NCBI GenBank assembly: GCA_017792445.1
Contig: CP051232.1
Coordinates: 2,640,001-2,704,000 of the forward strand
Reading direction: 5' to 3'
Source of the DNA: Maritimibacter sp.
Lineage (GTDB): Bacteria > Pseudomonadota > Alphaproteobacteria > Rhodobacterales > Rhodobacteraceae
Length of the DNA stretch: 64,000 nucleotides
A program made the position numbers and the translations under genes. The notes under the pieces are model-generated. The model saw nothing but the letters and a program-made list of their open reading frames with translations, was not told the DNA's origin and did not search any database. Positions within the stretch are counted from its first letter, which is position 1; each line of letters opens with the position of its first letter. Positions 54,011 through 63,639 of this stretch are shown here, in pieces.

Positions 54011-54236
54011 GCCGCCGTTCTACAGTGCCGCGACGGCCGACGCCATCGGGCTGTAAATACACATCCGCCAGGGGAGCCCACGCCCAGGCGGCTGTGCGGA
54101 AATGCCGTATCCATGCGAAAACCTTATGTAATTCCGGTGAAGCCGAACCCGATCCGGAAATTTGCTTTCAATTCAATGTTTTTTGTCTCATTTTCCTTGC
54201 CTGGGGGCGATTTTAACGCATGTTCTAACGGCGATA

Positions 54237-54821
54237 ATGCCGGGGTTAGGATTGTCTGTGTCTCACGACGAGAATTTGCGCACCCGTCTCAGGGTGGGCA
54301 CGCGGGAAGAACACGAAGCACTGGATGCAAAGCTGTCGGAACTGGATCTTCGGTCCCCCGACGGTCTGTCGCGTTTCCTGCAGTTGCAGGCGGCAGCGCT
54401 GCCGTGCATCCGCATCTCTGAGGGCGTGGCGCGCTCGGCGGACCTTGCGGACGATCTGCTTGCCTGCCTGCGGCTGGACCTTGCGGTGCTCGGCGTCGAC
54501 GAATTGCCGGGCGGCCCGGTGGTCGAGGTGCATGCGCTTGCGATGGATTACGTCGTGCTTGGCTCACGGCTGGGCACGGCGGTGCTGCGCCGGCACTGGG
54601 CCGATGCGGCCGACCCGTTGGTGCAGCGGGCCAACCGATATTTCGACACCCCCGCCCGGCCCGATCTGTGGCGCGCTTTCTGCGTCGAGACCGCAGAGAT
54701 GGCGGGAGAAGGCGACTTTGCGGACCGCATGGTGCGCGACGTGCGTGCGCTTTTCACACTTTACGATGATTGCGCAGGCATGGCGCTGAAGGCAGGACGA
54801 CCCATTGATGAATTCACCTGA
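54237..54821 (+). CDS. bphO: Biliverdin-producing heme oxygenase (BphO)
   Basis: Opens heme to biliverdin, the chromophore of the adjacent bacteriophytochrome. The 194-residue helical protein has the heme-oxygenase N-terminal motif RLRVGTREEHEALDAKLSEL with the proximal His in EEHEALD, and ALAMDYVVLGSRLGTAVLRR as the distal-helix GSxxG equivalent. The ATG shown has little ribosome-binding site; a GTG at 54258 after TTAGGA is a good alternative. It overlaps bphP by 14 bases, so the two are co-translated. Confidence 0.88.
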   Translation: MPGLGLSVSHDENLRTRLRVGTREEHEALDAKLSELDLRSPDGLSRFLQLQAAALPCIRISEGVARSADLADDLLACLRLDLAVLGVDELPGGPVVEVHALAMDYVVLGSRLGTAVLRRHWADAADPLVQRANRYFDTPARPDLWRAFCVETAEMAGEGDFADRMVRDVRALFTLYDDCAGMALKAGRPIDEFT

Positions 54822-57369
54822 TCGCGGTGCGACCGACTTCGCAGTAGATCTGACCAACTGCGATCGCGAGCCGATCCATGTACTTGGCCGGGTGCAGTCC
54901 TACGGCTGTCTTCTTGCGGTGTCTCCGGACTGGTTCGTGGCGCATCTTTCGGCGAACTGCCAGGACATGCTGGGTCTCGACCCCGACGCCGTTCTGGGTG
55001 TGCCGCTGACTGAATTCCTGCCCATGCAGACCGTCCACCTGCTGCGATCCAAGCTGCAGCTTCTCGACGCTGGTGACAGCGTGGGCCGGATCTTTGCTCT
55101 GGACGTGTTCGAAGACGGTCGCCTGTTCGACGCGTCGCTGCACAGGTCCGGGCATTTCTACATCTTCGAGTTCGAGCCCCGCGCCGGAGACTCGACCGAC
55201 GGCAGCGAAATGGCGATGGTGCAGGGCCTGATTTCCCGCGTGCAGCGCAATCGCACGGTCGAGGAAATGGCGCATGACGCGGCCCGCGGTCTGAAAGCGC
55301 TGATCGGCATTGATCGGGTCATGGTCTACCGGTTCGAAGAGGACGACAGCGGCACGGTCATCGCCGAGGCGCGGGAACCGCAGCTGGAGTCGTACCTCGG
55401 CCTGCACTACCCGGCGAGCGACATCCCGAAGCAGGCGCGCGAGCTTTACACCCGCAGCCCGCTGCGGCTGATCGCCGATGTGAACGACACGCCCTCGCCG
55501 GTGGTTCCCGCGGTCGGTCCTGACGGCAAGCCGCTGGACCTGTCTTTGGCGGCGACGCGGGCGGTAAGCCCGATCCATCTGGAATACCTGCGCAACATGG
55601 GCGTGGGGGCGTCGCTTTCGGTGTCGATCCTGCGGCGTGGCAAGCTGTGGGGGCTGTTCGCCTGCCACCACTATTCGCCGTTCTACATCGGCTACGACCT
55701 GCGCAGCGCCGTCGAGTTGTTCGCGCAGCTGTTCAACTACGAACTGGCACAGGCCGAGACCGATGCCGAACTGGCCGAGATCGACCGCGCGCGGGGGATG
55801 CACGACCGCGTTCTGGCGCAGATGTCCGACGGTCAGGACCTGATGGACACGTTCGATTTCGTCGCGCGCGAGATGGCTGACGTGATCCCTTTCGACGGGA
55901 TCGCCATCTTCTCGAACGGCCACTACCGCGCACGGGGTCTGGCGCCGACCGAGGAAGAGTTTCTTGGACTGGCGCGGTTCCTCAACACCGCGCAGATGAG
56001 CCAAGTCTACGCCACCGACTGCATCTCTGAACGTTACCCGCGTGGTGCGGATTTCTCAGAGCGCGCGGCGGGTCTGCTCGCGTTGCCGATCTCGCGCTCT
56101 CCGCGCGACTATATCGTGCTGTTCCGGCAGGAAGTGGCGCGGACGGTGACATGGGCCGGCAACCCGGAGAAACCGGCGGAGCTTGGGCCGAACGGTGTAC
56201 GGCTTACCCCGCGCAAGAGCTTCGAGGCGTGGCAGGAGGTCGTGAAGGGCCACAGCGCCGCGTGGAAACCGGGCGAACGCCGGGCGGCGGATACGTTGCG
56301 GGTGACGCTTCTGGAGATCGTTCTGAAGCTGACCGACGAGGCGGCGGACGCGCGTCAGAAGGCGAACGACCAGCAGGAACTGTTGATTGCCGAACTGAAC
56401 CACCGGGTGCGCAACATCCTGAACCTGATCCGAGGCCTTGTGAGTCAGGGCAAGGGCGATGCGACGAATATCGAGGTCTACGGTCAGGTGCTGGACGCCC
56501 GCATCCATGCGCTTGCGCGCGCGCACGACCAACTGACGCAGAAAGAATGGCACTGGGTCTCGCTCAAGTCGCTGATCCGCACCGAGGTGCGCGCCTTCCT
56601 GTCGGAAAAGGCCGAACGGGTGCACATTCAGGGTCCGGACGTCGACCTGTCGCCGACGGCCTTCACCACGATGGCGCTGGTGGTGCACGAACTGGTGACC
56701 AACTCTGCGAAGTATGGCGCGCTCAGCGACAGCTCTGGCTCGGTCGAGATCCTCATCGCGCAGCGCCCCGATGGTGGCGCCGAATTGGGGTGGCGCGAGA
56801 AGGGCGGCCCGCCGGTGCAGGCGCCCACCCGCAAGGGGTTCGGCACCACGATCATCGAACGCTCCGTGCCGTTCGAACTGAAGGGGACTGCGCATATCGA
56901 GTACAAGGTGACGGGTCTTGAGGCTCAATTCGGCATCCCGACGGCGCATGCCGAACCTGCCGAGGCGCAAGCCGATGGCGATGCTGGCGACACCACGGAC
57001 GCACCTGTGCCAAGCGGTCGCCTGACCGGTCCCGCGATGGTGGTTGAGGACAACATGATCATCGCGATGGACGCGGCTGACATGCTTGAACATCTTGGCG
57101 CGTCTTCGGTGCGCACGGTGGCGGGCGTGGCCGACGCGCTGAAGGCGCTGGACGATACCGTCCCGGTGTTCGCCCTTGTCGACGTGAACCTTGGTGACGA
57201 GAATTCGCTGCCGATCGCGGAACGGTGCCGCGAACTGGGCGTGAAATTCGCGCTGGCGACCGGCTATGGCGCCAGCGACGACATCGTCGAGTCCTTCCCG
57301 GACGTGCCGATCCTCAAGAAGCCCTATACCATCGAACATATCGGCGAGGCACTGGCAGAGCTTTTCTGA
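54808..57369 (+). CDS. bphP: Bacteriophytochrome: PAS-GAF-PHY-HWE kinase-receiver
   Basis: Red/far-red photoreceptor kinase, 853 residues. Domains in order: PAS (about 15-115) with biliverdin Cys18 in LTNCDREPIH; GAF (about 140-320) with LHYPASDIPKQARELY and CHHYSP; PHY (about 330-510) with tongue PRKSFEAW; HWE-type kinase (about 525-700) with phosphoacceptor His532 in ELNHRVRN and N-box HELVTNSAKYGAL; C-terminal receiver (about 740-853), phosphoacceptor Asp792 in FALVDVNLGDEN. The ATG was chosen over the adjacent upstream TTG. All elements appear intact. Output may be phosphotransfer within the protein or to another partner. Confidence 0.96.
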   Translation: MNSPDRGATDFAVDLTNCDREPIHVLGRVQSYGCLLAVSPDWFVAHLSANCQDMLGLDPDAVLGVPLTEFLPMQTVHLLRSKLQLLDAGDSVGRIFALDVFEDGRLFDASLHRSGHFYIFEFEPRAGDSTDGSEMAMVQGLISRVQRNRTVEEMAHDAARGLKALIGIDRVMVYRFEEDDSGTVIAEAREPQLESYLGLHYPASDIPKQARELYTRSPLRLIADVNDTPSPVVPAVGPDGKPLDLSLAATRAVSPIHLEYLRNMGVGASLSVSILRRGKLWGLFACHHYSPFYIGYDLRSAVELFAQLFNYELAQAETDAELAEIDRARGMHDRVLAQMSDGQDLMDTFDFVAREMADVIPFDGIAIFSNGHYRARGLAPTEEEFLGLARFLNTAQMSQVYATDCISERYPRGADFSERAAGLLALPISRSPRDYIVLFRQEVARTVTWAGNPEKPAELGPNGVRLTPRKSFEAWQEVVKGHSAAWKPGERRAADTLRVTLLEIVLKLTDEAADARQKANDQQELLIAELNHRVRNILNLIRGLVSQGKGDATNIEVYGQVLDARIHALARAHDQLTQKEWHWVSLKSLIRTEVRAFLSEKAERVHIQGPDVDLSPTAFTTMALVVHELVTNSAKYGALSDSSGSVEILIAQRPDGGAELGWREKGGPPVQAPTRKGFGTTIIERSVPFELKGTAHIEYKVTGLEAQFGIPTAHAEPAEAQADGDAGDTTDAPVPSGRLTGPAMVVEDNMIIAMDAADMLEHLGASSVRTVAGVADALKALDDTVPVFALVDVNLGDENSLPIAERCRELGVKFALATGYGASDDIVESFPDVPILKKPYTIEHIGEALAELF

Positions 57370-57555: not shown

Positions 57556-57615
57556 TTACGTCTGACATAGTTTCAATCTTTGTCCGACAAAGTGGATTGA
57601 CTTTGTCGGACATTG
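57556..57615. promoter_or_regulatory. Three tandem FadR/GntR operator-like sites
   Basis: A perfect 15-base palindrome CTTTGTC-c-GACAAAG (57578-57592) is flanked by two degenerate copies, TTACGTCTGACATAG (57556-57570) and CTTTGTCGGACATTG (57601-57615). Centres are 22 and 23 bases apart, about two helical turns. The TTGTccgACAA core fits the FadR-subfamily consensus TnGTn3ACnA. The last copy ends 15 bases before the regulator start, so autoregulation is likely. Confidence 0.75.
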
Positions 57616-57630
57616 TGAGACGGTCAGGCC

Positions 57631-58338
57631 ATGAGCGACGACACCCCCGAACTTGGATCCGGCAAACCGCGCGAGGTTCTCGACGCGGTGGCCGAGATGA
57701 TCGTTGCCCGCGGCATCGGCGTGGGCGACCGGCTGCCGCCCGAGATCGAACTGGCGCGCGAGCTTGGCGTCGGCCGCTCGACGGTGCGCGAGGCGCTGCG
57801 GTCATGGCAGTCGATGGGCATCGTCACCCGGAACAAGGGCGCGGGCACCGTGCTGCGCGCCCCGATCCACGCTCAGTCGATGCAGTTCCCGCTGTCGATC
57901 TCGCTGGAGGCGCAAAGCCTGATGCGGACGCTTGAAGTGCGCCGCCCGCTGGAAGTCGACTCGGCCCGGCTGGCCGCCCTGCGCGCCGACGAGCGCCAGC
58001 GGCACGAGATCATGACCCGCATGTACGAACTGATGGACGCGCTGGAAGCCGGGGAAGACTGGCGCCCGCAGGACCACGCGTTTCACGCCGCGATCCACGA
58101 TGCGACGGGCAACCCGCTGTACAAGCAACTGGTCGATCAGCTTCAGCACGCATTCCACGCCGTCTACGAGGCGCCGTTCGGCGAACCGCAGCTTGGCACC
58201 GACACGATCCCGCTGCACCGGCCGCTGGCCGAGGCGATCCGCGACGGCGACGCGGACGAGGCGGCGCGGATCATGAACCAGATTCTCGACCTAGTGGAAA
58301 AGGCCACGCAGGCAAAGATCGGAGAGACCGACGCATGA
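57631..58338 (+). CDS. GntR-family regulator, FadR subfamily
   Basis: A 235-residue regulator: winged helix-turn-helix at about 15-80 (IGVGDRLPPEIELARELGVG, GRSTVREALRSWQSMGIVTR) and a C-terminal all-helical FCD effector domain at about 95-225 (MRTLEVRRPLEVDSARLAAL; DHAFHAAIHDATGNPLYKQL, metal/ligand-binding His residues). It heads a run with the PLP enzyme (ATGA overlap) and ABC importer; FCD regulators commonly sense carboxylated metabolites. Three operator-like repeats precede it. Confidence 0.93.
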   Translation: MSDDTPELGSGKPREVLDAVAEMIVARGIGVGDRLPPEIELARELGVGRSTVREALRSWQSMGIVTRNKGAGTVLRAPIHAQSMQFPLSISLEAQSLMRTLEVRRPLEVDSARLAALRADERQRHEIMTRMYELMDALEAGEDWRPQDHAFHAAIHDATGNPLYKQLVDQLQHAFHAVYEAPFGEPQLGTDTIPLHRPLAEAIRDGDADEAARIMNQILDLVEKATQAKIGETDA

Positions 58339-59483
58339 CCGACGACAGCATCGATACCTTCCTGGCCCAGCCGTTCGGCGGGGGCGAAGGATCGGTGACA
58401 CCTCCGATTTACCAATCGTCGCTGTTCACCTTCGACGACTTCTCGGCCTTCGAGGCGCGGATGTCGGGGCAGGGCAACCGCACGCTGTATTCCCGCGTGC
58501 AGAACCCGACGCAGGATGCCTTCGAGAAGATGATGGCGAAGCTGGAAGGCGGCGAGGCCGCGGTGGGTTTCGCCAGCGGCATGGCGGCGATCTCGTCGGT
58601 GCTGTTCGCTTTCCTGAAGCCGGGCGACCGTCTGGCCTGCGTCGAGCACGTCTACCCCGACGCCTACCGCCTGATGGAGCGAATGCTGGGCCCGTGGGGC
58701 GTAGAGGTCACGTATCACTCGGTGACCGAGTTGCAGGACAACCCGGACACGCTGAAGGGCGCGGCGCTGGCGTATCTGGAAAGCCCGAACTCGATGATGA
58801 TGCAGGTGATGGACCTGCGGAAGGTGGCGGATCACGCGAAGGCGCATGGCTGCCTGACGGTGGTCGACAACAGCTGGGCGACGCCGGTGTTCCAGACCCC
58901 GCTGGCGCTGGGCATCGACATCGTGCTGCACTCGGCCTCGAAATACATTTGCGGACATTCGGACACGGTGGCCGGTGTGGTCGTGGCGTCCGACGAACAC
59001 ATTGCCCGCATCCGTGACCTGACCCTGCCGCTGCTGGGTGGCAAGCTGGCCCCGTTCGAGGCGTGGCTGCTGGTGCGCGGGCTGCGCACGCTGCCCGCCC
59101 GGATGCGCGAGCACCAGCGGACCGCCGATCTTTTCGTCGACCGGCTTGGCGCGCGGCCCGAGGTCGTGGCCGTCAACTCGCCCGGCCCCAACTCGGTGCC
59201 CGGTCTCAAGGGCCGCTCGGGCCTGATGTCGATCGAGTTCACCAAGGACATCGACGTCCGCAAATTCGCCGACGCGCTGAACCTGTTCCACTACGGCGTC
59301 AGCTGGGGCGGCTTCGAAAGCCTGATCGTGCCGACCGCGATCACGCTGGCGCAGGCCGGTCCGAAGAATTCGCTGCAAGCCTTCGGCGTGCCCGACACGA
59401 TGGTCCGCATCTCGCTGGGTCTCGAGGACGCCGAGGCGCTTTGGGCCGATTTCGAATCCGCTCTGGTCAAGGCCGGACGCTGA
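58335..59483 (+). CDS. PLP-dependent Cys/Met-metabolism enzyme
   Basis: A 382-residue fold-type I PLP enzyme of the cystathionine gamma-synthase/beta-lyase superfamily. PLP-lysine Lys203 is in LHSASKYICGHSDTVAG; Asp178 in VVDNSWATPVF holds the pyridine nitrogen; Tyr108 in VEHVYPDAYRLM is the usual ring-stacking residue. The family includes lyases for C-S bonds, methionine gamma-lyase and transsulfuration enzymes; the substrate is not settled. Coupling to a FadR-like regulator and a sugar-type ABC importer suggests catabolism of an imported sulfur or amino compound. Confidence 0.88.
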   Translation: MTDDSIDTFLAQPFGGGEGSVTPPIYQSSLFTFDDFSAFEARMSGQGNRTLYSRVQNPTQDAFEKMMAKLEGGEAAVGFASGMAAISSVLFAFLKPGDRLACVEHVYPDAYRLMERMLGPWGVEVTYHSVTELQDNPDTLKGAALAYLESPNSMMMQVMDLRKVADHAKAHGCLTVVDNSWATPVFQTPLALGIDIVLHSASKYICGHSDTVAGVVVASDEHIARIRDLTLPLLGGKLAPFEAWLLVRGLRTLPARMREHQRTADLFVDRLGARPEVVAVNSPGPNSVPGLKGRSGLMSIEFTKDIDVRKFADALNLFHYGVSWGGFESLIVPTAITLAQAGPKNSLQAFGVPDTMVRISLGLEDAEALWADFESALVKAGR

Positions 59484-59545
59484 ACAAGAAGGGCCGCAAA
59501 GGCTCCGTATTCAACAAACCCCATTCAACAGGGAGCTAGAGAAGA

Positions 59546-60796
59546 ATGAGAAGACTGACAGGAACCACTGCGCTTGCGCTGCTGCTCGCCACCGGCGCGC
59601 AGGCGGCCGATCTGAAGCTGGTCGAGGTGATCACCAGCCCCGAGCGCACCGAGACCCTGACGGAAATGGTCTCGGCGTGGGAAGCAGAGACCGGCAACAC
59701 GGTCGAGATCGTCTCGCTCCCGTGGGGACAGGCGTTCGAGAAGTTCGCGACCATGGTCGCGGGCGGCGATATCCCCGACGTGGTCGAGATGCCGGACCGC
59801 TGGCTGGCCCTGTACGGCCCGCAGCTGATGGACCTGCAACCCTATTTCGATGGCTGGGAACATGCCGACACCCTGACCGAGACGACGGTCAACATGGGCT
59901 CGGCCACCGCTGACGGGTCGTTCAAGGAAATCCCCTACGGCTTCTACCTGCGCGCCATGTTCTACAACAAGGACCTGCTGGCCGAGGCCGGCGTGGAAAG
60001 CGTGCCGGAAACGATGGCAGAGTTCCGCGACGCATCCGCCAAGGTGTCCGAGCTGGACGGCAAGTACGGTTACTGCCTGCGCGGTGGTCCCGGCGGTCTG
60101 AACGGCTGGATGATGATGGCCGCGAACATGATGGGCTCGTCGGACTTCTTCGACGCGGAAGGCAAGGCCACCATCAACTCGCCCAAGGCGGTCGAGGGCC
60201 TTCAGTTCCTGATCGACATCTATCAGGACGGGCTTGCGCCGCGTGACGCCGTATCGTGGGGCTTCAACGAGATCGTCGCGGGCTTCTATTCCGGCACCTG
60301 CGCCTTCCTCGACCAGGACCCGGACGCGCTGATCGCCGTGGCCGACCGGATGGACGCCGAAAGCTTCGCCGTCGCACCGATGCCGAAGGGCCCGGACGGC
60401 AAGTCGTTCCCGACCATCGGCTATGCCGGCTGGGCAGCGTTCGACAGCTCTGCCGCGAAGGACGAGGCATGGTCGCTGATCGCGCACCTGTCCAGCCCCG
60501 AGCAGAACAAGACCTGGGCCAAGCGGGTGGGGGTGATCCCGATCCACAAGGGCGCCGACCAGGACCCGTACTTCCAGTCCGAACAGTTCTCGGGCTGGTT
60601 CACGGAACTGAACGACCCGGCATGGGAACCGCTGACCATGCCGACGTACCTCGAGGGCTTCGGCTATTTCGCCGACTCGATCGCGCTCGAGACGTCCCAG
60701 CAGGCGCTGCTGGGTGAAATCTCCGCCCAGGACATGGCCGACGAATGGGCCGCGTTCCTGACCGAAGAGTACGAGAAGTATCAGGCGGCGAAGTGA
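59546..60796 (+). CDS. ABC importer substrate-binding protein (CUT1-type)
   Basis: Periplasmic solute receptor, 416 residues. A signal peptide (MRRLTGTTALALLLATGAQA) is followed by KLVEVITSPERTETLTEMVS and other features of the extracellular solute-binding family 1 (MalE/UgpB-like): GGDIPDVVEMPDRWLALYGP, IPYGFYLRAMFYNKDLLAEA and a late GYAGWAAFDSSAAKDEAW. No lipobox. GGGAGCTAGAGAAGA precedes ATG. Overlap with the first permease is four bases. Confidence 0.93.
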   Translation: MRRLTGTTALALLLATGAQAADLKLVEVITSPERTETLTEMVSAWEAETGNTVEIVSLPWGQAFEKFATMVAGGDIPDVVEMPDRWLALYGPQLMDLQPYFDGWEHADTLTETTVNMGSATADGSFKEIPYGFYLRAMFYNKDLLAEAGVESVPETMAEFRDASAKVSELDGKYGYCLRGGPGGLNGWMMMAANMMGSSDFFDAEGKATINSPKAVEGLQFLIDIYQDGLAPRDAVSWGFNEIVAGFYSGTCAFLDQDPDALIAVADRMDAESFAVAPMPKGPDGKSFPTIGYAGWAAFDSSAAKDEAWSLIAHLSSPEQNKTWAKRVGVIPIHKGADQDPYFQSEQFSGWFTELNDPAWEPLTMPTYLEGFGYFADSIALETSQQALLGEISAQDMADEWAAFLTEEYEKYQAAK

Positions 60797-61734
60797 CTCC
60801 ACTCACGGACACAACTGAGGCGACCGGGGGCATCCCCCGGTCGCGCTTTGGCCGGGCCTATCTGCGCTATGCGGTAGAGCCCTGGATGTACCTGTCACCG
60901 GCGGTTCTGCTGATCTGCTTTGTGATGCTGATCCCGCTGGCCATCGGGATTTCCTATTCGGTGCAGTCGATCAACCTGCTGCGCCCCTTCGACACCGGCT
61001 ATGTCGGGTTGGAGAACTTCGCCGATCTCGGCGATGACCGCAAATTCTGGCTCGCCTTGAGCAACACCTTCTGGTGGACCTTCGGCTCGGTGACGCTTCA
61101 GTTCTTTCTTGGCCTCGGGCTGGCCCTGCTGCTGTCGCGGCCGTTTCACGGCAAGCGCGTGGTTCAGGCGCTGGTGTTCCTGCCGTGGGCCGTTCCGACC
61201 TTCCTGATCGCTCTGACGTGGTCGTGGCTTCTGAACCCGGTGATCGGGCCGCTGCCGCACTGGTGGGCGGCGATGGGTATCCTCGACGAGCCCTACAACA
61301 TCCTGTCGAACCCCGACACGGCGATGTGGGGACCGATCATGGCGAACGTCTGGTACGGCGTTCCGTTCTTCGCGATCACCCTGCTGGCCGCGCTGCAATC
61401 CATCCCGCACGAACTGTACGAGGCGGCCGAGATCGACGGCGCCTCGCGCTGGCAGAGCTTCACCAAGATCACGCTGCCCTTCCTTGGGCCGATGATCGCG
61501 ATCACGGTGATGCTGCGCGCGATTTGGATCGCCAACTTCGCCGACCTAATCTTTGTCATGACCGGCGGCGGGCCAGCCAATTCTACGCAGATCCTGTCGA
61601 CCTACATCTTCACGACGGCGTTCCGGAAGCTGGACTTCGGCTATGCCTCGGCCATCGCCGTCGCGCTGCTGGCGGTGCTGCTGGTTTATGCCGCGATCCT
61701 GCTGTTCATCCGCGCGAAACTGGTGAAGACCTGA
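60793..61734 (+). CDS. ABC importer permease (MalF-like)
   Basis: A 313-residue permease with about six membrane segments and the cytoplasmic EAA loop LYEAAEIDGASRWQSFTKIT at about 205-225, the contact point with the ATPase. Sequences such as WLALSNTFWWTFGSVTLQFF and LVFLPWAVPTFLIALTWSWL are typical of UgpA/MalF-type subunits. GTG start (GTGA overlap with the receptor gene) gives MTPLTDTTEATGG. It is coupled to the following permease by a one-base overlap. Confidence 0.93.
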   Translation: MTPLTDTTEATGGIPRSRFGRAYLRYAVEPWMYLSPAVLLICFVMLIPLAIGISYSVQSINLLRPFDTGYVGLENFADLGDDRKFWLALSNTFWWTFGSVTLQFFLGLGLALLLSRPFHGKRVVQALVFLPWAVPTFLIALTWSWLLNPVIGPLPHWWAAMGILDEPYNILSNPDTAMWGPIMANVWYGVPFFAITLLAALQSIPHELYEAAEIDGASRWQSFTKITLPFLGPMIAITVMLRAIWIANFADLIFVMTGGGPANSTQILSTYIFTTAFRKLDFGYASAIAVALLAVLLVYAAILLFIRAKLVKT

Positions 61735-62576
61735 TGACAAGCCTGTCCCGACCCTCCCCGCTGATGGTGGCCGGCAAGTATCTTGCCGTCGCGGCCTACG
61801 TGATCTTCGCGCTGTTCCCTTTGTACTGGCTGCTGAAGATCGCGCTGACGCCGGACCGGATGATCTATTCCGAGGGTACCGCGCTGTGGCCTTCGACACT
61901 GACGTTCGAGAACTTCCGCGCCGTGATCTTCGCGTCGGACTTTCTGGCCTACTTCAAGAACTCGGTCATCGTGTCGCTGTCGACCGCGGCCATCACGGCG
62001 CTGGTCGCCGCCGCCGCGGGCTATGCCTTCTCGCGTTTTCACTTCCGCGGCAAACGCTGGGTGATCGTGCTGATGCTGCTGACCCAGATGTTCCCGCTGC
62101 TGATGATCATCGCGCCGATCTACAAGATCGTGGCCGGGCTGGGGATGCTGAATTCGCTGACCTCGCTGATCGTGGTCTACACCGCGTTCAACGTGCCCTT
62201 CGCGACCTTCCTGATGCAAAGCTTCTTCGACGGCATCCCGAAGGACCTTGAAGAGGCCGCGATGATCGACGGCTGCACCCGGTTTCAGGCGCTGTGGAAA
62301 GTGATCCTGCCGCTGACGCTGCCGGGCCTTGGCGCGACGCTGGGCTTCGTGTTCACCGCCGCGTGGTCCGAACTGCTGTTCGCCCTCATGCTGATCAACT
62401 CGAACGACGCGATGACCTTCCCGGTGGGGCTGCTGACCTTCGTCAGCAAGTTCTCCGTCGACTGGGGGCAGATGATGGCCGCCGGCGTGCTGGCGCTGAT
62501 CCCGTCCTGTCTCTTCTTCCTGTTCATCCAAAGGTACCTTGTTCAGGGCCTGACCAGCGGCGCCGTGAAAGGATAA
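61734..62576 (+). CDS. ABC importer permease (MalG-like)
   Basis: A 280-residue permease with six membrane segments. The EAA loop is IPKDLEEAAMIDGCTRFQAL (about 163-182); MalG/UgpE hallmarks include FPLYWLLKIALTPDRMIY near the N-terminus and QMFPLLMIIAPIYKIVAGLG. It pairs with the MalF-like permease and the UgpC-like ATPase four bases downstream. Nothing appears missing. Confidence 0.94.
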   Translation: MTSLSRPSPLMVAGKYLAVAAYVIFALFPLYWLLKIALTPDRMIYSEGTALWPSTLTFENFRAVIFASDFLAYFKNSVIVSLSTAAITALVAAAAGYAFSRFHFRGKRWVIVLMLLTQMFPLLMIIAPIYKIVAGLGMLNSLTSLIVVYTAFNVPFATFLMQSFFDGIPKDLEEAAMIDGCTRFQALWKVILPLTLPGLGATLGFVFTAAWSELLFALMLINSNDAMTFPVGLLTFVSKFSVDWGQMMAAGVLALIPSCLFFLFIQRYLVQGLTSGAVKG

Positions 62577-62580
62577 TCCG

Positions 62581-63639
62581 ATGGCCGAGATGGAGCTGAA
62601 ATCCGTTCGCAAAGCCTATGGCCCGACAGAGGTTCTGCGCGACATCGACCTGAAGATCGAAGACGGCGAATTCGTCGTGCTGGTCGGCCCCTCAGGCTGT
62701 GGCAAGTCCACCCTGTTGCGCATGATCGCGGGGCTGGAGCCGATCTCGGGCGGCGAGTTCACCATCGGCGGCAAGCCGATGAACGATGTGGCGCCGCGTG
62801 ACCGGGACATCGCGATGGTGTTCCAAAGCTACGCGCTTTACCCGCATATGTCGGTCGAACGGAACATGGGCTTCTCGATGGAGATCCGGCGCGAGCCCGC
62901 GTCCAAGCGCAAGGCCCCGGTGGCCGAGGCGGCGCAGACGCTGGGCCTTGGCAAGCTGCTGGACCGCTTCCCCAAGGCGCTGTCGGGCGGCCAGCGGCAG
63001 CGCGTCGCGATGGGCCGCGCCATCGTCCGTGACCCGAAAGCCTTCCTGTTCGACGAACCGCTGTCCAACCTCGACGCTGCCCTGCGGGTCGAAATGCGGC
63101 TTGAGATCGCCAAGCTGCATCAGCGGCTGGGTGCGACGATGGTCTACGTCACCCACGATCAGGTCGAGGCGATGACGCTGGCCGACCGGATCGTCGTGCT
63201 GAACGGCGGCGACATCCAGCAGGTCGGCTCTCCGCTGGAGCTGTACGAGACGCCTGCCAACCTGTTCGTCGCGCAGTTCATCGGCTCGCCCAACATGAAC
63301 GTGTTCGAGGTCACTCCGGCCGAGGGCGGCGTTCGTCTGGGCAACGGATCCGTGATTCCGGGGCCCGCAGACGCGCGCTACATGGGCATCCGGCCAGAGC
63401 ATATCGATATCGTGGAAGGCGAGGGCGACGTCACCGCGACGGCGCAGTTGGTCGAGCGTCTGGGCTCGGACACCAATATTTACACGGATATCGAGGGTGT
63501 CGGGCCGCTTCTGGTGCGTGTCAGTGGCAACGTCGCGTTGAAGCCCGGCGAACAGGTGACGCTACGTTACAACCCTGGGAAGCGACATTTTTTCGGGGCC
63601 GATGGCGTCGCCTTGGTGCGCAACGTGCCCCTGGGTTAG
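62581..63639 (+). CDS. ABC importer ATPase (UgpC/MalK-like)
   Basis: A 352-residue ATPase: Walker A VGPSGCGKSTLLRMIAGLE at about 36-54, signature LSGGQRQRVAMGRAIVRDPK, Walker B FLFDEPLSNLDAALR and His-switch VTHDQVEAMTLADR. The C-terminal TOBE domain (about 240-352; MGIRPEHIDIVEGEGDV) is of the UgpC/MalK type. Such subunits energise carbohydrate or polyol importers, so a sugar-like substrate is expected for the complex. Confidence 0.95.
   Translation: MAEMELKSVRKAYGPTEVLRDIDLKIEDGEFVVLVGPSGCGKSTLLRMIAGLEPISGGEFTIGGKPMNDVAPRDRDIAMVFQSYALYPHMSVERNMGFSMEIRREPASKRKAPVAEAAQTLGLGKLLDRFPKALSGGQRQRVAMGRAIVRDPKAFLFDEPLSNLDAALRVEMRLEIAKLHQRLGATMVYVTHDQVEAMTLADRIVVLNGGDIQQVGSPLELYETPANLFVAQFIGSPNMNVFEVTPAEGGVRLGNGSVIPGPADARYMGIRPEHIDIVEGEGDVTATAQLVERLGSDTNIYTDIEGVGPLLVRVSGNVALKPGEQVTLRYNPGKRHFFGADGVALVRNVPLG

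Follow-up and report, generated by a model that had tools for sequence, protein, structure and literature searches.

The six-gene operon described here may be dedicated to the uptake and cleavage of an alpha-amino acid that carries a sugar, most likely O-glycosyl-threonine or O-glycosyl-serine with mannose as the sugar, a reading that we favor tentatively and place somewhat short of an even chance. According to the proposed mechanism, the GntR/FCD protein would bind the tandem palindromes and repress this operon alone until an acid-type ligand releases it. The CUT1 importer would take in the glyco-amino acid, and the PLP enzyme, judging from the chemistry of its family and from the neighboring genes, would form an aldimine with the substrate amino group, remove the alpha proton, and expel the sugar from C-beta, leaving aminocrotonate or aminoacrylate, which would hydrolyze to 2-oxobutyrate or pyruvate and ammonia. 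The sugar would be passed in relatives to mannose/lyxose-type isomerases and the keto acid to a 2-oxo-acid dehydrogenase E1. With a little less confidence, we consider it possible that this route is non-hydrolytic, i.e., that the PLP lyase, served by its own importer, beta-eliminates the intact sugar from O-glycosyl-threonine/serine and replaces a glycosidase. Proteolysis of O-glycosylated proteins should yield glyco-amino acids; no dedicated bacterial route for these compounds is known to us, and the literature searched contained no paper on the catabolism of mannosyl-serine/threonine. If this reading is true, the transsulfuration fold would have a new use, in a lyase that splits the bond between sugar and amino acid with no glycosidase involved, and the operon of rhizobia, roseobacters, and Pantoea would be accounted for, with a substrate that is directly testable.

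All six open reading frames and three operator palindromes are present at positions 57557-63639 of the window, i.e., the whole 64 kb stretch of DNA that was analyzed (Table 1), and Pfam and NCBIfam profile searches confirmed the family assignments of the genes. The sequence-only reading had described three palindromes before a FadR-type gene, then a Cys/Met-type PLP enzyme, and after it all components of a CUT1 importer; this observation (open reading frames, families, and operators) was borne out, and the overall interpretation found partial support. Its statement that the genes follow one another without gaps holds at all junctions save one, since the receptor starts 62 bp past the PLP stop. 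The regulator and PLP genes overlap as ATGA, and the frame of permease 1 opens at 60745, with a likely GTG start that overlaps the receptor stop as GTGA.

Table 1. Features of the operon (positions in the window; profile scores in bits, cut-offs in brackets).
Feature	Position	Strand	Evidence and remarks
Operator-like palindrome 1, TACGTCTGACATA	57557..57569		Also in L015; no counterpart at the same place in the 81% relative L016
Operator-like palindrome 2, TTTGTCCGACAAA	57579..57591		Pair with site 3 also precedes the regulator gene in many relatives
Operator-like palindrome 3, TTTGTCGGACATT	57602..57614		Partner of site 2 in the operator pair
FadR-type GntR regulator, FCD domain	57631..58338	+	Pfam FCD 81.4 (24.3), GntR 56.6 (27)
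PLP enzyme, Cys/Met family, PRK05968 subfamily	58335..59483	+	PF01053 321.4 (27); NF004627 527.8 (508)
CUT1 solute-binding protein	59546..60796	+	SBP_bac_1 142.5 (26); alignment; N-terminal signal-peptide-like stretch by eye
Permease 1, MalF/UgpA type	60793..61734	+	BPD_transp_1
Permease 2, MalG/UgpE type	61737..62576	+	BPD_transp_1
CUT1 ATPase with TOBE domain, UgpC subfamily	62581..63639	+	NF008653 467 (432)

With its SBP_bac_1 receptor, two BPD permeases, and MalK/UgpC-type ATPase carrying a TOBE domain, the importer is a CUT1 system of the same composition as Ugp and MalEFGK. It differs from the Ugp glycerol-phosphate importer in falling below the cut-offs of the UgpB, UgpA, and UgpE models (37.8 vs. 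411, 106.7 vs. 335, and 97.2 vs. 297, respectively), and the receptor showed no close match to the known CUT1 substrate groups. The receptor structure predicted from three sequences had a pLDDT of 41, too low to be of use for the binding pocket. Excerpts of two papers on rhizobial CUT1 systems contain no mention of the operon (PMC3333776, PMC3454389).

The PLP enzyme belongs to the PF01053 family and to its PRK05968 subfamily, and the active-site alignment shows that it keeps the catalytic Lys203 together with Tyr107, Asp178, Arg358, and Trp324, the last position being Trp in MetC and Leu in methionine gamma-lyase (MGL) and MetB. The equivalents of the PLP lysine, Tyr111, Trp340, and Arg372 of E. 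coli MetC are thus retained, and we count the MetC-type Trp, Tyr, and Arg in favor of the glyco-amino acid reading. The enzyme nevertheless differs from E. coli MetC in sequence (29% identity), in its score with the MetC model (TIGR01324, 217.4 vs. a cut-off of 365.9), and in the location of its gene outside a methionine context; it also missed the cut-offs of the MGL model (TIGR01328, 292 vs. 549.7) and of the MetB model. A housekeeping MetC/MetB identity, which the sequence-only reading had named, in combination with a receptor for an ordinary sugar, as fatal to its proposal, is therefore unlikely, the more so because the genome holds three other full-length PF01053 enzymes, two above the MetZ and MetY cut-offs and a third (L180) with no model match at the 1e-90 limit. 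The genome gave three further PF01053 matches, of which two were weak but above the cut-off (at about 34 bits) and the third was below.

The nearest homolog of the PLP enzyme with a described function is, by sequence comparison, VbsL, the vicibactin epimerase, which acts on an ornithine derivative. The R. johnstonii enzyme of an NRPS hydroxamate cluster, which we take to be VbsL, shares the PRK05968 subfamily, a Trp-Gly-Gly motif, and 44% identity with the PLP enzyme. The genes differ in context: VbsL-like genes belong to hydroxamate NRPS clusters, in most of which a MATE exporter is encoded, and are not accompanied by GntR and a CUT1 importer, and inspection by eye found no hydroxamate NRPS cluster genes among the open reading frames flanking the operon. 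VbsL-like enzymes nest within the operon PLP clade in the tree, which suggests that the siderophore epimerase and the catabolic enzyme share an ancestor, and which makes an epimerase or racemase the main rival explanation. Such an enzyme would take an imported D-amino acid, or an amino-acid derivative, and invert it at the alpha carbon for use in the ordinary L-pathways, with no bond cleavage; we judge this rather unlikely. It draws on the description of VbsL as an acyl-hydroxyornithine epimerase in the excerpt consulted (PMC12971057), on the nesting and identity just given, and on Ala/Glu racemases being the second NCBIfam match and a near PDB match of the PLP enzyme. However, racemization does not produce 2-oxo acids, and a 2-oxo-acid-type E1 has nonetheless come to lie next to the operon on three or four occasions (see below). 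Moreover, racemase side activity is found in MetC-type lyases (E. coli MetC is annotated so), and VbsL may thus be a lyase-type enzyme whose substrate has no leaving group. Because VbsL is an epimerase, the name C-S lyase leaves the chemistry of the PLP enzyme unfixed.

The gene set was compared across 390 genomes of the order, 41 of which were PLP-positive; 7 were set aside as VbsL-like, six after their neighborhoods had been read by eye and the seventh (G361) by identity and genus alone. The importer is present in 30 of the 34 PLP-clade genomes, and this gene-context check upheld the proposal of a single catabolic unit, with the PLP gene directly upstream of the receptor in every one of the 30 receptor-bearing genomes (for 26 of them the reading covered all six genes, and for G101, G130, G264, and G314 a narrower region). 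The operon is distributed among rhizobia, roseobacters, and Pantoea, and an equivalent six-gene set occurs on Rhizobiaceae and Pantoea plasmids.

Directly behind the ATPase, an AceE-like E1 lies on the same strand in 10 of the 30 operon genomes and convergently in 1. The E1 tree showed four label changes, i.e., three or four separate placements at the operon, one of them being the convergent L147, which carries the operon label; the tree excluded the G319 operon copy and also L230, which nearly duplicates L127, and L223 was labeled MGL-linked from its sister genomes. Genome-wide, E1 was found in 25/34 PLP-clade genomes vs. 6/20 listed negatives (Fisher p 0.004, kinship uncorrected). Away from the operon, E1 is accompanied by MGL at 15 of 21 places, and the pair occurs also in R. 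pomeroyi and Leisingera, the Leisingera copy with E2 and E3. Since MGL is the usual partner elsewhere and E2/E3 accompany the Leisingera copy, the operon-linked E1 is probably of the 2-oxobutyrate type. A sugar transketolase is unlikely in view of the same partners, although the AceE match is far below its cut-off. The MGL/E1 units, which we take to resemble mdeA-mdeB, share with the operon the PLP lyase family and, in relatives of the window, the adjacent 2-oxo-acid-dehydrogenase-like E1; they differ in having an Lrp-type regulator and no CUT1 importer, and the genome of the window lacks E1. Genus g76 carries three E1 copies 14.5 kb off the operon, and the two that were read each lie behind an MGL-like gene.

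A gamma-type lyase acting on a homoserine or homocysteine derivative (e.g., sulfur- or glyceryl-substituted) and releasing 2-oxobutyrate directly, as MGL does, would fit these E1 partners, and glycerophosphodiesters are also CUT1 cargo. The predicted structure of the PLP enzyme (pLDDT 83.6) likewise gave MGLs as the best 23 of the 50 fold matches shown, with the racemase 9iz5 (TM1270) at rank 24, although this ranking fits a lyase and an epimerase alike. We nevertheless regard this explanation as improbable, given that Trp324 is as in MetC rather than Leu, that Asp stands at the MGL Cys116 position, and that the mannose-type isomerases and the GH38 case described below would be left unexplained. 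No recurrent sulfur gene was found either among the flanking families seen at least three times in relatives, and a sulfur compound was rejected as the substrate; MGL itself was seen as the usual E1 partner elsewhere, in a single genus at a distance of about 10 kb past the operon. Hence, the suggestion of a sulfur- or amino-bearing sugar-like substrate gained support for its amino-bearing sugar half, through the neighboring genes, and none for its sulfur half.

Three unrelated mannose-type isomerases were found at the downstream slot of the operon in relatives. In 9 of the 30 genomes, a mannose-isomerase-like AGE gene follows the operon or, where present, its E1, a count that includes a partial frame in G101, and in 2 it is convergent; its top PDB names include NAG isomerase/epimerase and sulfoquinovose isomerase. 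L142 has a D-lyxose/D-mannose isomerase at this slot, and in G192, AGE directly follows the PLP gene and the importer is absent. The genome-wide association of AGE was weak (19/34 PLP-clade genomes vs. 6/20 listed negatives, Fisher p 0.09, kinship uncorrected). Counted against the main reading are the AGE gene adjoining another CUT1 importer, the divergent AgaS isomerase and GlcNAc-type kinase adjoining the operon in L134, and the galactonate dehydratase and DHDPS-family gene adjoining it in Mameliella. Both E1 and AGE lie beside the operon in only 5/30 genomes and neither in 13/30. The genome of the window has no AGE-family gene and no E1 copy (E 1e-150); therefore, the substrate evidence derives from relatives.

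An orthologous importer on a Maritalea plasmid, nested in the operon clade of the receptor tree (built without four near copies), is accompanied by a PF01050 mannose-6-P isomerase domain, a ROK kinase, and a GH38 alpha-mannosidase, and the 15 kb examined there contain no PLP gene. A glycosidase occupies the PLP slot in this related plasmid, which is one record. It could be taken to mean that the importer carries a plain alpha-mannoside (an oligosaccharide or a mannosylglycerate-like compound) while the PLP enzyme catalyzes a separate reaction that merely shares the regulator, and GH38 includes mannosylglycerate hydrolase, whose NCBIfam model the Maritalea protein matched weakly (93.8 vs. 1138). 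We assign this explanation a low probability, as the PLP enzyme is the sole constant enzyme, directly before the receptor in 30/30, and as PLP and AGE are kept together without the importer in G192.

Returning to the glyco-amino acid reading, the regulator, with its GntR helix-turn-helix and FCD domain, has Asp148, His152, and His196 invariant in 42/42 aligned sequences, a putative metal/carboxylate site that we count in favor of such a substrate. The palindromes are spaced by 22 and 23 bases, as the sequence-only reading had stated. GTCNGAC occurs 30 times in the window, with three copies inside 60 bp at the regulator only, and the pair TGTCNGACA-N11-15-TGTCNGACA has a single copy in the 4.68 Mb genome, at the operon, and none in the reversed control. 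One exact pair per genome, at the operon only, was found in 19 of the 28 operon-bearing genomes searched (all except G242 and G368), in agreement with the local regulation proposed earlier; a wider regulon was thus rejected for the exact pair, the search for which added no pathway genes. Upstream of the 42 regulators, a set that includes near copies and possibly misplaced start codons, at least two GTCNGAC sites occur in 22 cases, one in 15, and none in 5. Among the regulators compared, the evenly spaced triple site is confined to the window and to L015, which is closely related, and L135 and L158 have a third GTCNGAC site at a different spacing.

The six genes listed in the table almost certainly form a single import-plus-PLP catabolic unit. 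The window's genome is one contig (4.68 Mb), and the nearest named relative at the operon locus is a Maritimibacter MAG (99% PLP enzyme identity). The regulator and PLP genes overlap by 4 bases, the receptor (solute-binding protein) and permease 1 genes by GTGA, provided that permease 1 starts at 60793, and the final two junctions are of 2 and 4 bases; the sequence-only reading, which described the genes as running without gaps, holds at all junctions except that between the PLP and receptor genes, where 62 bases form the sole gap. The ATPase lies above the UgpC subfamily cut-off (NCBIfam), and the receptor and both permeases reach no cut-off in the NCBIfam lists.

Coordinates and domain content of the operon and its flanking features
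Feature	Window position	Sequence, domains or remarks
Operator-like palindrome 1	57557	TACGTCTGACATA
Operator-like palindrome 2	57579	TTTGTCCGACAAA
Operator-like palindrome 3	57602	TTTGTCGGACATT
Six-gene operon	57631-63639	all on one strand
Regulator		GntR + FCD
PLP enzyme		PF01053
Receptor		SBP_bac_1
Permeases 1 and 2		BPD_transp_1 each
ATPase		ABC_tran + TOBE_2
Phytochrome-type HWE histidine kinase	54162-57369	upstream neighbour of operon

A PLP homologue (E 1e-90 or better) was found in 41 of 390 genomes of the order; seven of these, six of them read, were set aside as carrying PLP genes like VbsL, the vicibactin acyl-hydroxyornithine epimerase, leaving 34 PLP-clade genomes. The receptor gene lies 52-111 bases downstream of the PLP gene in 30 of the 34, the other four being without the importer, and no receptor (E 1e-80) occurs without the PLP gene among the 390, which bears out the expected conservation of the PLP gene beside the importer. 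The regulator-PLP-CUT1 order seen in the sequence recurs as well: of 26 fully read operon genomes, 25 carry all six genes in order (no regulator match in G212). In a 385-genome class sample, PLP and receptor genes occur in the same six genomes, and among 17 genomes around G795 the receptor is present in four, each with the six genes in order. Annotated plasmids carry the operon in Rhizobium sp. WL3, R. etli CFN42, Phyllobacterium, Pantoea dispersa, Alloyangia, R. tumorigenes, Sinorhizobium meliloti, Mameliella, Tritonibacter, and Palleronia. In R. leguminosarum CB782, the other five genes are present with no adjoining regulator, and PLP and receptor searches did not find the operon in G449, a genome of the window's own genus. 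The parts belong to known families; their combination is conserved and, as far as our searches go, undescribed. In Paracoccus litorisediminis (L019:8380-9760), both the regulator and the PLP gene look broken, with split frames and only part of the PLP enzyme matched, and no importer match comes after the PLP gene.

The window holds 30 copies of GTCNGAC; three of them fall inside 60 bp solely ahead of the regulator, where the three operator-like palindromes of the sequence-only reading were recovered. At least two such sites are present in the 200 bases upstream of 22 of 42 regulators, one in 15, and none in five, the usual multi-site form being two WWTGTCNGACAWW copies 21-23 bases apart. Rhizobial-type orthologues have one differing operator of the ATGTCAGACCAA kind, shared as GATGTCAGACCAA upstream of the regulator (L128, L129, L147, L155, L156, L173, L177). 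The search for the operator pair covered 28 operon genomes and four that have the PLP gene but not the importer, 32 in all. The pair was found in 19, all operon genomes, in one copy each, 0.72-0.88 kb ahead of the PLP match, i.e., immediately before the regulator; the reversed pattern, serving as a control, had no match in the 32 genomes. Since the pair, where present, occurs once per genome and always at this place, the regulator looks local to the operon, judging from this search for the pair pattern. Its FCD residues Asp148, His152, and His196 are kept in all 42 aligned regulators, and an FCD Asp/His site suits an acid-type ligand.

The PLP enzyme, whose catalytic residues are conserved, scores 527.8 bits against the PRK05968 subfamily (cut-off 508), named merely 'hypothetical protein'. 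It falls short of the NCBIfam cut-offs of MetC, MetB, and methionine gamma-lyase, and the housekeeping MetC/MetB role considered earlier loses ground accordingly. The window genome encodes three further full-length PF01053 enzymes, two of which exceed the O-succinylhomoserine-sulfhydrylase and O-acetylhomoserine-sulfhydrylase cut-offs, with no model match at 1e-90 for the third. Position 324 is Trp in 43/43 operon enzymes, as in MetC, whereas methionine gamma-lyase and MetB have Leu; the same Trp is found in VbsL-like enzymes and in PDB 9iz5 (titled multifunctional PLP-dependent enzyme TM1270, named Ala/Glu racemase). In the PLP tree (quick search, midpoint root), the VbsL-like enzymes form a clade (98% SH-aLRT) nested among those of the operon, adjoining the Phyllobacterium enzyme. 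PMC12971057 assigns VbsL to vicibactin synthesis as its acyl-hydroxyornithine epimerase. This nesting, together with the epimerase role of VbsL, weighs most heavily against a lyase. From its cluster, we infer that the R. johnstonii PLP gene is VbsL. VbsL-like PLP genes (L149-L154, L174-L176) belong to NRPS clusters for hydroxamate siderophores, most of which include a MATE exporter.

A PLP enzyme producing a 2-oxo acid is favored by separate placements at the operon of E1, an AceE-like 2-oxo-acid-dehydrogenase-like thiamine enzyme: in the E1 tree (39 rows), the operon label takes four changes, which corresponds to three or four independent arrivals, the convergent one included. E1 scores 171.9 bits against aceE, far under the cut-off of 859.9; it directly follows the ATPase on the same strand in 10/30 operon genomes and is convergent in 1/30. 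The 35 E1 places in 54 genomes comprise 11 beside the operon, three in genus g76 about 14.5 kb from it, and 21 elsewhere, 15 of these with methionine gamma-lyase (14 adjoining, one at 1.8 kb). A methionine-gamma-lyase-like gene precedes E1 in the two g76 genomes read, as does an annotated methionine gamma-lyase in R. pomeroyi; the Leisingera cluster also contains E2 and E3, and no methionine gamma-lyase adjoins E1 in the records read from Azospirillum, Agrobacterium, and Cereibacter. E1 most likely belongs to a 2-oxobutyrate dehydrogenase. Genome-wide, it occurs in 25/34 PLP-clade genomes versus 6/20 others (p 0.004, uncorrected). A unit of Lrp, methionine gamma-lyase, and E1 recurs in Rhodobacterales (L189, L194, L203, L204, L206-L209, L211-L213, L215, L216, L219-L221, L241) and is likely a 2-oxobutyrate dehydrogenase; public records annotate its E1 as transketolase or DXS-like.

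Other neighbors point to a sugar. A mannose-isomerase-like (AGE) gene follows the ATPase or E1 on the same strand in 9/30 operon genomes (G101 partial) and is convergent in two; E1 and AGE occur together in 5/30, and neither in 13/30. In G192, AGE is directly 3' of the PLP gene, with an amidase ahead and the importer absent. The sole NCBIfam match of AGE is D-mannose isomerase (304 and 307 bits in the two proteins scanned, cut-off 600), and its PDB matches include NAG epimerase/isomerase, YihS, and sulfoquinovose isomerase. Its genome-wide co-occurrence is weak (19/34 PLP-clade genomes versus 6/20 others, p 0.09), and it adjoins another importer as well. At L142, a D-lyxose/D-mannose isomerase (PF07385; 213 bits, cut-off 350) replaces AGE. 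A Maritalea plasmid carries an orthologous importer (receptor 61.6%, permease 2 79%), its receptor falling inside the operon clade of the receptor tree (98%), with no PLP gene within the 15 kb read. The plasmid has instead a ROK kinase, a mannose-6-phosphate isomerase C-terminal domain (PF01050), and, in the PLP place in this single record, a GH38 alpha-mannosidase with Ams1 as its closest PDB match; alpha-mannosidases of this type are intracellular. Because one slot is shared by an alpha-mannosidase and three mannose-type isomerases unrelated to one another, mannose or a close epimer appears to be freed inside the cell; the arrangement is otherwise hard to explain. Other sugar genes occur at single loci (L134, L125).

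PLP enzymes require an amino group on the substrate, here presumably that of an alpha-amino acid, and the neighbors would call for a free sugar plus a 2-oxo acid, with 2-oxobutyrate preferred. All these demands would be satisfied by O-mannosyl-threonine (or -serine), whose beta-elimination yields mannose, 2-oxobutyrate (or pyruvate), and ammonia. We therefore offer only tentatively, at somewhat below even confidence, the composite reading of O-mannosyl-threonine/-serine import, PLP beta-elimination, and an acid-type regulator ligand. Counting against this reading are the weak genome-wide co-occurrence of AGE and its presence next to another importer, the other sugar genes at single loci, the restriction of the mannosidase case to one record, and the four PLP-clade genomes that are without the importer. 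Our literature searches listed no paper on mannosyl-serine/threonine catabolism, which counts neither for nor against it. No E1 copy (E 1e-150) and no AGE gene were found in the window genome, where the products would thus pass into general metabolism.

A 300-nt unit occurs four times in direct orientation shortly after the operon (window 63702 onward; L002:6703-10607), the other copies being 70-88% identical to the first. Every copy has a 68-nt leader, and the spacings are 715-726 and about 2,090 bases. Upstream, the receiver domain match of the HWE histidine kinase is under its cut-off, and the ORF ahead of the kinase is heme oxygenase-like by eye.
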